A DNA stretch of 64,000 nt, taken from assembly GCA_035651655.1 (NCBI GenBank), contig DASRFG010000019.1, forward strand, positions 62,001 to 126,000. The letters are read 5' to 3'. Shown here one piece after another: positions 14,292-18,368 of the stretch (positions within the stretch are counted from its first letter, which is position 1; every line of letters begins with the position of its first letter). This DNA is from Terriglobales bacterium. GTDB taxonomy: Bacteria > Acidobacteriota > Terriglobia > Terriglobales > Acidobacteriaceae. A program made the translations under genes and the position numbers. Under the pieces are notes generated by a model. The model was given only the letters and a program-made list of their open reading frames with translations. It made no database searches and had not been told where the DNA came from.

Positions 14292-15560
14292 TCAGCGGCC
14301 GACGCCGACGTAGCGAAATCCCATGCCGCGCAGTTTGGCGCCGTCGAGCAGGTTTTTGGTATCTACGATTACCTGCCTCTTGAGCAGGCCCCGGATGCGC
14401 TGAAAATCAAGGTTGCGAAATTCGGGCCATCCCGTCCCCACCACCAGGGCGTGCGCGCCCTCAACCGCGGAGTACACGGAATCGCAATATTTGATCTGGC
14501 CGTCCAATTCAGTTTTTGCGCCGGGCATAGCGACCGGATCATAGGCGCGTACGTTTGCGCCTCTAGCAATGAGACTCCGGATCAGCCGAATGGAGGAAGA
14601 GCCCGCGACGGAATTGGTGTTGGGCTTGAAGGCGAGGCCGATCATAGCTACTTGCTTATCGGTGATGTTCTCCAAGGTGTCACAAATCTTCTTGGCCATC
14701 TGGTCAGAAAACGAGCTGTTGACGTCGCGCGCCGCTGCCAGCACCTTCAAGGGAACGTGATGCTCTCCGGCCAACTGGCTCAGGGAGTACATGTCAGTTT
14801 CTGCGAATGGGCCGCCGATGCCGGATCCGGCTTGCAAACAGCGTGGACCGATCCGCTTGTCCAAACCCAGCGCCAGGCCCAGATCAACCGCATCCGCTCC
14901 CACATGCTCACATAAAGCGGCAAGCTCGTTAATAAAAGATAGCTTGGTAGCCAGGAATGCCGTATCTGCCTGGCGAGCCAGCTCAGCCGTCTCATGATTG
15001 GTAACCAGCACTGGAACACCGCGCATGACCAGAGGACGAAAAATCTGCTTCAGGGCCTTGACTGCCGCTTGCGATTCAGTGCCCAGGATGATGCGGTCAG
15101 GGCAGTTGAAATCTTCGACGGCGCAGCCATCCGTGAGGAAGATCGGCAGTGAGACCACGGTGACCGAAAGGCCGGCTTCCTTGAAGCGCTTCTCAATAGC
15201 GGCTGCGGTGCCGACGGGGACGGGCGTGACCACCGCCATGATCGTGTCTCGGGGCATGAGCCGGGCCACGTGCAACGCGGTTTCCTCGATACCTTTGGCG
15301 CTGTCCTCGGCAAGAAAGATAATCTGCGATCGTGCCGCGAGTTTTTCGATTTCGCTGGAATAAACCAGGCGTCCACAGCGCACGTTCCTGCGGATTACTT
15401 CTTCCAGGTTCTTTTCGTGAAACGGGATGGCGCCTTTGGCCATGCCCAGCAGGCGGTCAGCATCATCGTGGGAGCAGAAAACGGGCGTGCCGAAATCAGA
15501 CAGGCCAGCGGAAATTACCGTTGCCAAAAATCCCGAACCGTAGACTCCAAAGGGCAGCAT
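14292..15560 (-). CDS. UDP-glucose/GDP-mannose dehydrogenase family protein lacking the catalytic cysteine
   Basis: A 422-residue protein with the three-domain plan of nucleotide-sugar dehydrogenases: N-terminal Rossmann domain (GVYGSGFLATV), central domain (TPVPVGTA, PDRIILG, LATKLSFINELAALCEHVGAD) and C-terminal UDP-binding domain (IGLAFKPNTNSVAGSSS). The active-site segment is unusual: the canonical GYGGSCFPKD reads GIGGPFAETD, so the catalytic Cys is Phe252 and the following Lys is Thr255. PEFLREG is PIFLTDG. Thr (PVGT), Lys and Asn (KLSFINE) and Asp256 are kept. It probably binds a nucleotide sugar without performing the usual two-step oxidation. It lies downstream of a 2H phosphoesterase gene with a gap of about 200 bases. 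Confidence 0.85.
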   Translation of the reverse strand: MLPFGVYGSGFLATVISAGLSDFGTPVFCSHDDADRLLGMAKGAIPFHEKNLEEVIRRNVRCGRLVYSSEIEKLAARSQIIFLAEDSAKGIEETALHVARLMPRDTIMAVVTPVPVGTAAAIEKRFKEAGLSVTVVSLPIFLTDGCAVEDFNCPDRIILGTESQAAVKALKQIFRPLVMRGVPVLVTNHETAELARQADTAFLATKLSFINELAALCEHVGADAVDLGLALGLDKRIGPRCLQAGSGIGGPFAETDMYSLSQLAGEHHVPLKVLAAARDVNSSFSDQMAKKICDTLENITDKQVAMIGLAFKPNTNSVAGSSSIRLIRSLIARGANVRAYDPVAMPGAKTELDGQIKYCDSVYSAVEGAHALVVGTGWPEFRNLDFQRIRGLLKRQVIVDTKNLLDGAKLRGMGFRYVGVGR

Positions 15561-15762: not shown

Positions 15763-16320
15763 TCAGTATGACGTCGGTTTGGCTACCAGGTTACCGCCGA
15801 GAGGGACGGGCGCCAGGTCGTCCCATGTGCTGCCCTGGCCTTCGCGGACGAAGGTAAGCTCTTCAATGAGAATGCGGCGGTTGCCGCTGTATTCAGACCA
15901 GCGATCCTGGGCAAGCTGTAGTGCGCTTTTCGCCTCTGTCGCACTGCTCAACTTGGCGATGGTGAGGTGAGGCATGTAGGGGAATTGCTCCTGAAACTGC
16001 AAAGGACCGTGGTTTAGCTGGTCGTGAAGTTCGCGCATCCGATAGGCGCCATGAGCAACGCGGATAAACACAGTGGCAGTTTGCGGTACGAACGTCTCCA
16101 CTTCTCCCATGACCACTTCAAAAGGACTGGCTTGGCTGCAGACTTGTTCCACGATCTCGCGGGCTTGTTCTTCTGAACCCTGAAGGACACGGGGCGGCAA
16201 AATCGTAATGTGAGCGGGTAAATGGGGCAGAGTGGAACGGAGTTCCCGGCGCAAGCGCTCCACGAATTGCCCGACGGGAGCCTTTACATAAGCCACAAGG
16301 GCATATTGCAAGGGCTGCAT
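15763..16320 (-). CDS. 2'-5' RNA ligase / 2H phosphoesterase family protein
   Basis: A 185-residue cytoplasmic protein with the two HxT motifs that define the 2H superfamily: PAHITILPP near residue 37 and MPHLTIAKL near residue 122. Such enzymes act on 2',3'-cyclic or 2'-5' phosphodiester bonds in RNA or nucleotides. The length fits the LigT/YjcG group. The physiological substrate cannot be told. It lies on the same strand as, and upstream of, the dehydrogenase homologue. The 202-base gap between them gives no sign of tight coupling. Confidence 0.85.
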   Translation of the reverse strand: MQPLQYALVAYVKAPVGQFVERLRRELRSTLPHLPAHITILPPRVLQGSEEQAREIVEQVCSQASPFEVVMGEVETFVPQTATVFIRVAHGAYRMRELHDQLNHGPLQFQEQFPYMPHLTIAKLSSATEAKSALQLAQDRWSEYSGNRRILIEELTFVREGQGSTWDDLAPVPLGGNLVAKPTSY

Positions 16321-16485: not shown

Positions 16486-16562
16486 CGGGGCGTAGCGCAG
16501 CCTGGTAGCGCACCTGCCTTGGGCGCAGGGGGTCACAGGTTCAAATCCTGTCGCCCCGACCA
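16486..16562 (+). tRNA. tRNA-Pro (anticodon TGG)
   Basis: A complete 77-base cloverleaf with encoded CCA. The acceptor stem is CGGGGCG (16486-16492) with CGCCCCG (16552-16558), and the discriminator is A16559. The anticodon stem CCTGC/GCAGG holds the loop CTTGGGC, which gives anticodon TGG. The T-arm is CACAGGTTCAAATCCTGTC. The last 7 bases of the gene begin a long direct repeat (16556-16659 and 18265-18368). Confidence 0.95.
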
Positions 16563-16659
16563 AACTTGATCCAGTTGTCTTTTCAGAAACTCAGAAGTTA
16601 ACCTATCCGTCACTTCAGAGCTTTTGCCCTGGCTGACTGATGAGAAAGGCTGTTCTCAA
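16556..16659 (+). repeat. Direct repeat, left copy, starting at the 3' end of tRNA-Pro
   Basis: 104 bases that align without gaps to 18265-18368. The first 53 bases are identical; the rest carries scattered substitutions. The left copy overlaps the last seven bases of tRNA-Pro. Together with the right copy it brackets a 1.7-kb segment holding the Sel1-repeat gene. This layout resembles attL/attR sites at a tRNA, but no integrase is present. Confidence 0.75.
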
Positions 16660-16774
16660 AAGGTATGGCGGGAGCCCTCTGGAACTCAACGTCCCTTCGG
16701 CGTAAAGTGCTGCCCTAGCAGTGAATTGGAGGTTCCGGTGTGTTTTTGCCTTATCCACTCCTGAAGGACTGCAG

Positions 16775-18037
16775 ATGCGAACGGTAAAGATTGCAATGTC
16801 GGTAATTGTAGCTTTGGCGTGTTTTCTGGTTCCAGCGGCTCTCGCCCAATCAGCCCAATCATGGCCGCGTCCGATGGGCGCTGGAGCATTCCCAATCTCT
16901 TTCACGCACGCTTCTGCGTGGTTTGCACATCGAGCGGACGACAACCAGAAACTGATTACGATGCTGGTCTACTTCGAAGGACGTGCCGGCTGGAACAGTC
17001 AGCGCACAGATTTTAAATGGGAGCTGAATGGAAACACTGCCAAAATCCAGATGTCCCTTGGGGGAGAAGAAATCCTCCTAAAGTACTGGCCGAATAATGG
17101 CGACGTCGAGGTTCAGGGATCAAAATACAGCTTGTCGAGGACCAATGTCTTTCTCGTTGAAGACATCGACAGCCCACACCCCCGGGTCAGGCCGTTGGGC
17201 ATTCACGATTTATCGTTTGCAGCGGAGGACATACCAGCGCTCGTCCTGTTGAAGCGAGACCCGGATGTCTGGGCTGCGGTGAGCGGGAGATCACCCGCCG
17301 AACACTGGAAAAACCGTATCTCCAACACGCCGGAAAGAATCGTCGCTTGGGATACGGAGGGACTCCGACTTCTGCTGACTGGGAAGCCTGAATCTGAACG
17401 GCAGGCATGTGAATTATTCCGGCGAGCTGCGTTGGAAGGCTATGCAGCTTCCCAGTACCGGCTCGGCTACTGCTATGAGGCCGGACTTGGCGAAGACCAG
17501 AGCTTCTCCACAGCCAACAAATGGTACGACAAAGCAGCTCATCAAGGTCACGTGGATGCCCAATATAAGTTAGGCCATAGTTATCGCGTCGGTCGTGGTG
17601 TGCCGATTGATTTGGCTGCGGCGCTCCAGTGGTACAAGAAAGCAGCCGAGAACGGCGACCGCGAAGCTCTGCACAATCTCGGCTGGATGTATGCCACCGG
17701 GCAGGGCGTCAGAGCCAATGCCGAAGAAGCTTATCGCTGGTTTCTGGAGGCCGCAAAACGGGGAGAAACGGGTGCACAGTTTGAAGTTGCTCGCCGGCTG
17801 AGAGAGGGTGATGGCGTGAAGGAAGACCTAATCTGCTCCTATGCATGGCTTCTCGTTCTGCAAACACAAGAGAGCAACCTTGCACCTGAGGACCGGGAGC
17901 AGATCGACATAGCAATAAAATCGGTCCAGAGCAAGGTCGGTAAATCCGCCATCCTACAAGCGGAGGAACAGGCACACGTTTTGCTTACGACCATTGCGAA
18001 GAATGAAATGGAGAGCTTTGCACGGCAGCAGAGCTGA
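16775..18037 (+). CDS. Sel1-repeat protein, exported
   Basis: A 420-residue protein with a signal peptide (SVIVALACFLVPAALAQS). A N-terminal region of about 190 residues is of no family I recognise. Four Sel1-type TPR repeats follow from about residue 210 (ACELFRRAALEGYAASQYRL, AQYKLGHSYRVGRGV, ALHNLGWMYATGQGV, AQFEVARRLREGDGV), then a C-terminal helix pair. Sel1 repeats bind other proteins, and the site of action should be the periplasm. ATG 16775 has GAAGGA six bases upstream (16763-16768) and starts the signal peptide; the frame runs back to 16721. The gene is the only intact one between the two direct repeats. Confidence 0.85.
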   Translation: MRTVKIAMSVIVALACFLVPAALAQSAQSWPRPMGAGAFPISFTHASAWFAHRADDNQKLITMLVYFEGRAGWNSQRTDFKWELNGNTAKIQMSLGGEEILLKYWPNNGDVEVQGSKYSLSRTNVFLVEDIDSPHPRVRPLGIHDLSFAAEDIPALVLLKRDPDVWAAVSGRSPAEHWKNRISNTPERIVAWDTEGLRLLLTGKPESERQACELFRRAALEGYAASQYRLGYCYEAGLGEDQSFSTANKWYDKAAHQGHVDAQYKLGHSYRVGRGVPIDLAAALQWYKKAAENGDREALHNLGWMYATGQGVRANAEEAYRWFLEAAKRGETGAQFEVARRLREGDGVKEDLICSYAWLLVLQTQESNLAPEDREQIDIAIKSVQSKVGKSAILQAEEQAHVLLTTIAKNEMESFARQQS

Positions 18038-18177
18038 CCCTGGAATGGATCGGCAAGGATCCCAATCTGCTAGACGACTCAAAAAGCTCAAATCTTCCCG
18101 GCGAACCGAAGCTAGCGGGTCAGCTACTTGAACAACTAAATGGCCGAGGCGATGCCGCCCTTCTCGACAACTTCTGA
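18007..18177 (+). pseudogene. Protein-like reading frame without a start (C-terminal remnant)
   Basis: In the frame one base behind that of the Sel1 gene, bases 18007-18174 stay open between two stops and read as plausible protein (LTLEWIGKDPNLLDDS, then KLAGQLLEQLNGRGDAALLD, ending NF). There is no in-frame ATG and no ribosome-binding site. It overlaps the last 31 bases of the Sel1 gene. It could be the original C-terminus of that gene after a frameshift, or the end of a replaced neighbour. I do not recognise a family. Confidence 0.35.
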
Positions 18178-18264
18178 GAAATCCCCATTTCACCGGCTAA
18201 ATGACGTGTGCCTCCGAGGGCTCAGTTCCAGATATCAGAAAAGTTCTAAAATCGTCCGCTAAGG

Positions 18265-18368
18265 CCGACCAAACTTGATCCAGTTGTCTTTTCAGAAACT
18301 CAGAAGTTAACCTATCCACCACTTTAGAAGTTTTGCCCAGCTCAACTGGTCAAAAGGGATGTTATCAA
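18265..18368 (+). repeat. Direct repeat, right copy
   Basis: The partner of 16556-16659 at a fixed offset of 1709 bases, with 53 identical bases (18265-18317) followed by a diverged 51. It includes the CCGACCA that forms the tRNA-Pro 3' end in the left copy, but no other tRNA sequence. Confidence 0.75.

Follow-up and report, generated by a model that had tools for sequence, protein, structure and literature searches.

A cassette-like unit without its own integrase, likely accreted at the 3' end of tRNA-Pro(TGG), in a Terriglobales bacterium (Acidobacteriota)

Integrons are the best-known system in which single genes are strung behind one platform. CIMEs are described as derivatives of ICEs, and tycheposons are marine cargo elements anchored at tRNA genes. 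Tycheposons have been named as a proposed satellite family (PMC11389934). The tandem ssrA islands of Dehalococcoides lie behind one RNA gene and are bounded by a direct repeat of its 3' end, each repeat being immediately preceded by a conserved motif. Integration genes are missing from some of these islands, which were discussed as cis-mobilizable elements growing by accretion (PMC3146451).

The stretch of DNA analysed here (64,000 nt of contig DASRFG010000019.1, hereafter the window) belongs to a Terriglobales bacterium and contains a tRNA-Pro(TGG) gene (16486..16562, + strand, CCA included; ARAGORN), the presumed insertion target, followed by a pair of direct repeats. The two copies (16556-16659 and 18265-18368) aligned without gaps over 104 nt with 85% identity, the 53 leading bases being identical and all differences distal, and their starts were 1709 nt apart. 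Since the tRNA span determined by ARAGORN ends at 16562, the left copy starts inside the gene and opens with its final seven bases, CCGACCA, as a previous sequence-only reading had described. The pair was far beyond chance (E ~5e-27 for the second copy against the genome). That reading named two outcomes that would speak against an insertion, a dispersed intergenic 53-mer and a unit shared by all relatives, and neither was found: the 53-mer search across the own genome returned exactly the two repeat copies in 4.07 Mb, neither the 53-mer nor the 104-bp repeat was present in the 397 other genomes of the family, and the unit was not common to all relatives examined. No integrase lies inside the segment, also in agreement with the earlier description.

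The 25 bp directly to the left of the right repeat copy, overlooked in the earlier reading, constitute a conserved right end, AAAGTTCTAAAATCGTCCGCTAAGG (18240..18264, + strand; recovered by PWM), which is followed by a right CCGACCA core (18265..18271, + strand; attR core) identical to the left core at the tRNA-Pro 3' end (16556..16562, + strand; attL core). The same 7-mer closes the right ends of relatives. Behind each core stands one copy of a left-end sequence, Y, given by the rest of the 104-bp repeat (copy 1, 16563..16659; copy 2, 18272..18368; both + strand) and following the same pattern in other arrays. The proposal that the repeats are attL and attR of a small element at tRNA-Pro gained support, as the right boundary consists of a conserved right-end motif and a 7-nt core that recur in 42 genera. 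The span 16556-18271 is likely one integrase-less, cassette-like unit, mobilised in trans and accreting at the 3' end of tRNA-Pro.

The window unit closes with CAGAAAAGTTCTAAAATCGTCCGCTAAGG-CCGACCA, which matched the end of a unit on contig C6 of the same genome (CAGAAAATTCTGAAATCGTCCGCTAGAG-CCGACCA), the likeness continuing further upstream, and a right-end search of the own genome returned exactly these two places. At the family level, right end and core together were found in 84 of 398 genomes, which represent 42 of the 79 genera, compared to 3 genomes for the reversed pattern. A class scan of 156 genomes recovered the right end in a single family besides the own one (control matches, 0); the unit family spans two families of one Acidobacteriota class. 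The consensus derived from about 100 distinct sites was AAAGTTCtAAAATCGTCcgCTAGGG-CCGACCA, partly fixed by the search pattern itself, with a preceding AAAGTTCtA that the pattern did not fix and, behind the core, no more than a weak bias towards T. The conserved part of the sites lay almost wholly to one side of the core, and the right end (~25 bp) resembled the T-arm side of tRNA-Pro. Based on a PWM built from 102 other sites, with the window site left out, the window site scored 56.0 bits (mean of family sites, 55.9), compared to -16.4 for the next best place in the 64 kb and at most -4.3 for shuffles. By PWM, neither the rest of the window downstream nor the adjoining parts of the contig contained a second right end. 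The 53-mer and the right-end motif had no match in IMG/VR viral contigs, and the best matches in a plasmid collection spanned the tRNA alone.

This distribution bears on another origin considered previously, in which the tRNA-linked segment was duplicated in tandem and the second copy was then lost. A duplication would fit a 104-bp repeat that begins within the tRNA and has its differences confined to the distal half, but it does not predict the motif at 18240-18271, which 42 genera share while differing in cargo and in left ends. As it is not needed and leaves the right-end motif unaccounted for, the duplication is largely refuted by that motif and appears extremely improbable.

A tRNA-Pro 3' sequence was found within 3 kb upstream and on the same strand at 26 of 103 distinct sites, many of the loci being short (opposite-strand control, 0), and either such a sequence or another right end was found within that distance at 40 of 103. 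The other 63 had neither within 3 kb upstream, partly through short loci. Right ends with no intact tRNA-Pro nearby were seen at L214, L215, L217 and L218 (genomes G347, G259 and G363), and may represent displaced arrays or secondary sites.

The sequence after the core is a lineage-specific left end of the units. In genome G098, one left end (W) was common to several units that differ in cargo and are located at several loci. The DNA immediately following the tRNA was found again after a right end at C6, in the window and in G333 and G155 (L210), and partly at L181, L209 and L212. Because post-tRNA sequence recurs behind right ends, the 53/104-bp repeat is a left-end pattern and not an att core; the earlier view of the 53 identical bases as the core had to be given up, the shared core being only 7 bp and the remainder lineage-specific left-end sequence that is also found behind right ends elsewhere. 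Simple integration leaves the recurrence of the left end after both the tRNA and the right end unaccounted for. The likeness of flank and left end may indicate that units are formed at the locus itself, or that the second copy starts another, decayed unit; in the window, copy 2 of Y may be the original downstream flank of the tRNA or the left end of such a second unit.

At the mapped loci, right ends stood in series on the same strand behind tRNA-Pro genes or their 3' fragments, and tRNA-Pro genes of all three isoacceptors served as anchors. Five units of 0.78-1.43 kb were located behind a tRNA-Pro fragment (L189), five behind tRNA-Pro(TGG) (L181), two behind tRNA-Pro(GGG) (L188), and a series behind tRNA-Pro(CGG) (L193); L183, L188, L193, L194 and L212 held two or more units each, and single units of 0.6-1.7 kb were found at L198, L201, L209, L210, L216 and in the window. 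The window itself thus represents one unit, the series of single genes being seen in related genomes. Unit size had a median of 1.27 kb (n = 34 units), and most units carried one or two genes, without a recombinase. The cargo of L189 included toxin-antitoxin genes (MNT/HEPN, PIN, Fic/Doc and FitAB-like), and further cargo comprised a RibD-like reductase, a cupin, a nitroreductase with MarR, a phosphoesterase, a short-chain dehydrogenase and many unknown genes. The cargo ORFs listed for the small units at mapped loci included no integrase, and a tblastn search with the integrases of the own genome matched, among array loci, only L203 and L206, outside the small units. Gene-less mini-units of 91-95 bp, bounded on one side by a right end and on the other by either a second right end or the 3' end of a tRNA-Pro, were observed at five loci (L186, 7831-7922; L192, 8354-8447; L194, 7686-7780; L204, 50-141; L208, 9305-9400) and are possibly empty cassettes. 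A GGG-type tRNA fragment sits within the TGG array of G098, which points to movement between tRNA-Pro loci. In G013, a right-end site was found 10 kb behind the orthologous tRNA-Pro(TGG).

These sizes and contents also bear on whether the units are remnants of large integrase-bearing islands at tRNA-Pro, shrunk by internal deletion (CIME by decay). Large islands with an integrase do use the same tRNA genes: G014 has an integrase at tRNA-Pro(TGG) with a matching tRNA fragment 44 kb off, and an integrase located behind a right end. However, small size is the rule across the 34 units (median 1.27 kb), the units hold complete genes of differing function, and arrays of five similar-sized units are unlikely to result from random deletion. 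The window unit in particular, for which a small or decayed island had been considered, is no decayed large island but has at 1.7 kb the typical size of its cassette class. Origin by decay is considered unlikely.

The cargo of the window unit is a gene for a 420-aa, secreted-looking Sel1-repeat protein with a lineage-restricted N-terminal region (16775..18037, + strand; best start ATG 16775). The gene, noted before, is real (PF08238, E 7.9e-33). Its N-terminal region gave weak matches at most in the 398 family genomes. The Sel1 gene was also considered as a known mobile cargo and rejected, relatives matching in the Sel1 repeats alone with the N-terminal region nearly unmatched, and no PADLOC defence family was found for it; any function given to the protein would be an inferred one. 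A start-less coding remnant had been proposed as well: a start-less open frame of 56 aa is indeed present (18007..18177, + strand), but since it had no match in Pfam, PHROGs or other loci, its coding status is only putative.

The order UDP-sugar dehydrogenase gene, 2'-5' RNA ligase-like gene and tRNA-Pro(TGG) was kept at the tRNA-Pro(TGG) loci of most relatives examined by tblastn, the two upstream neighbours lying at 14292-15560 and 15763-16320 in the window and the ligase-like protein being 70% identical to that of Acidobacteriales bacterium LS_FP_2_bin.54. Downstream of the tRNA, nothing of the window gene order was kept in relatives. As the upstream side is kept and the downstream side is not, the 3' end of tRNA-Pro(TGG) forms a synteny breakpoint, as for an insertion hotspot. 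The downstream flanks of tRNA-Pro differed between genera, and this comparison across genera yielded no clean filled/empty pair at the nucleotide level. Among the congeners of G333 (genus g34), most matching alignments ran to the tRNA-Pro(TGG) 3' end, with a mostly variable downstream side. In G363, the region common to five other species of the genus starts ~270 bp further downstream, behind left-end-like DNA, and this junction, which has no recognisable right end, is the nearest case to an empty site; neither excision nor an exact empty site was observed in the genomes compared.

Besides the TGG gene, the own genome possesses tRNA-Pro genes with GGG (C6) and CGG (C14) anticodons. On C6, three tRNA 3' fragments stand behind tRNA-Pro(GGG), and after them a 1038-bp unit with a 196-aa ORF; the right-end site is located 1.4 kb behind the tRNA gene. 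The three tandem tRNA-Pro(GGG) 3' fragments (L144, 7211-7629) are 138-140 bp apart and directly behind the tRNA gene. Another contig, C32, contains two tRNA-Pro(CGG) 3' fragments 2973 bp apart (L143, 4088-7121). The sequences behind these two fragments are related and contain TGTAGACGATTTTGTAGACGG repeats, and repeats of a similar kind were observed in G226, G186 and G068 and, at C6 (L144), behind the last of the tRNA fragments. In G014 (L147/L148, C22:93594-137796), ~44 kb separate tRNA-Pro(TGG) from a matching 49-bp tRNA fragment, and the tyrosine recombinase adjoining the tRNA is a different one; the stretch probably represents a large island, located at the orthologue of the window's tRNA-Pro gene.

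Eight PF00589 matches were found in the own genome, one of which (C14:6904-8148, 414 aa; locus L137, 6904-8295) is separated by 73 bp from the tRNA-Pro(CGG) 3' end. Relatives of this C14 integrase were present in 24 of 398 family genomes, and in 18 of 27 loci (17 CGG, 1 TGG) a tRNA-Pro 3' end was located within 0.5 kb of the integrase, mostly at 35-160 bp; behind this 3' end, TTTTCAAnnACTT and short repeats (e.g. GGGTTTAC or GGGGCACCC) were often present. At two integrase loci (G014 and G411), the right end of a cassette stands in place of the tRNA; the integrase element therefore belongs to the same site series. The right-end motif was commoner in genomes carrying the integrase (12 of 24, compared to 72 of 374 others; Fisher p = 0.001, kinship ignored). 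At a cut-off of E 1e-40, 72 of the 84 motif-bearing genomes gave no match to a C14-type integrase; the units may therefore be served by a different recombinase or may for the most part be inert. The C14 integrase has a Gln at the conserved His position (MGQ), compared to MGH in 15 aligned homologues, and could be impaired by it.

Movement without an integrase could proceed, for example, by reverse transcription starting at the right end, which is tRNA-like and CCA-terminated, or through an IS-type element with tRNA-Pro as its target. All right ends do finish in the tRNA 3' CCA sequence, and conservation is nearly confined to one side of the core, but about one third of the main cargo ORFs (12 of 37) face the tRNA, the cargo ORFs listed for small units showed neither a transposase nor a reverse transcriptase apart from one transposase-like ORF in L184, and an integrase family occupies exactly these sites. 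Such a route is considered very improbable.

The conserved right end, the 7-bp core, their recurrence, the series, the association with tRNA-Pro and the position of the integrase are direct observations. For the cassette-like unit mobilised in trans, they can be combined in a scheme in which a unit would pass through a circular intermediate, and a tyrosine integrase that normally stands beside tRNA-Pro (on C14 in the own genome) would recombine the CCGACCA of the circle with that of tRNA-Pro or of the previous unit, acting in trans on units that carry no recombinase. With recombination at CCGACCA, units would therefore pile up behind a tRNA that is left intact. Under this scheme, units may still be mobile today and may be transferred between cells.

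Arrays of this kind were not found described for Acidobacteria in the literature covered, which leaves out bioRxiv and the majority of subscription journals, and the closest published system was that of Dehalococcoides, which shares the tandem layout, the upstream motif and the presence of some islands without an integration module. The Dehalococcoides islands have an ssrA target, a 20-bp repeat, a serine recombinase module and multi-gene islands, whereas the Acidobacteriota units have tRNA-Pro targets (three isoacceptors), a 7-bp core, a 25-bp right end and few genes per unit, and occur in many genera. The integrase linked to the latter is of the PF00589 tyrosine type and present at some tRNA-Pro loci, which places the units outside a class defined by ssrA and a serine recombinase. 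As in CIMEs (e.g. ICESt1 relatives), att-flanked DNA without integration or transfer genes adjoins putatively related integrative elements: both ends of the window unit carry att-type sites, one of them within the tRNA 3' end, and the Sel1 gene and the unproven frame alone lie between them, with no integration or transfer genes. Unlike CIMEs, the units are mostly single genes in series, and no ICE remnants were seen. Tycheposons, compared here by description only, are likewise tRNA-anchored cargo in different hosts.

Integron cassettes and CALIN resemble the units in several respects: arrays of single genes in which each cassette has one recombination site, site sequences specific to the lineage, toxin-antitoxin cargo, and arrays mostly without an integrase. 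The anchor is a tRNA gene here and attI in integrons. Three junctions folded no better than shuffles (z = 0.29, -0.20 and 0.00), giving no attC-like ssDNA hairpin, and the candidate integrase is not IntI (TIGR02249, 21 bits compared to a cut-off of 265); the likeness lies in layout, and neither the attC fold nor IntI is present. The recurrence of the motif and the strings of packets at tRNA genes suggest an integron-like collecting of genes. Whether this amounts to an integron analogue of Acidobacteriota, with a tRNA-Pro platform, right ends as cassette sites and a dedicated tyrosine integrase shuffling single-gene cassettes, including toxin-antitoxin and secreted proteins, at the three tRNA-Pro loci, is in our judgement evenly poised. 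If true, it would add to the integron a second, tRNA-anchored gene-collecting route in a dominant soil group, accounting for the gain of single genes, and the 32-bp signature would offer a handle for finding many mobile genes of unknown function.
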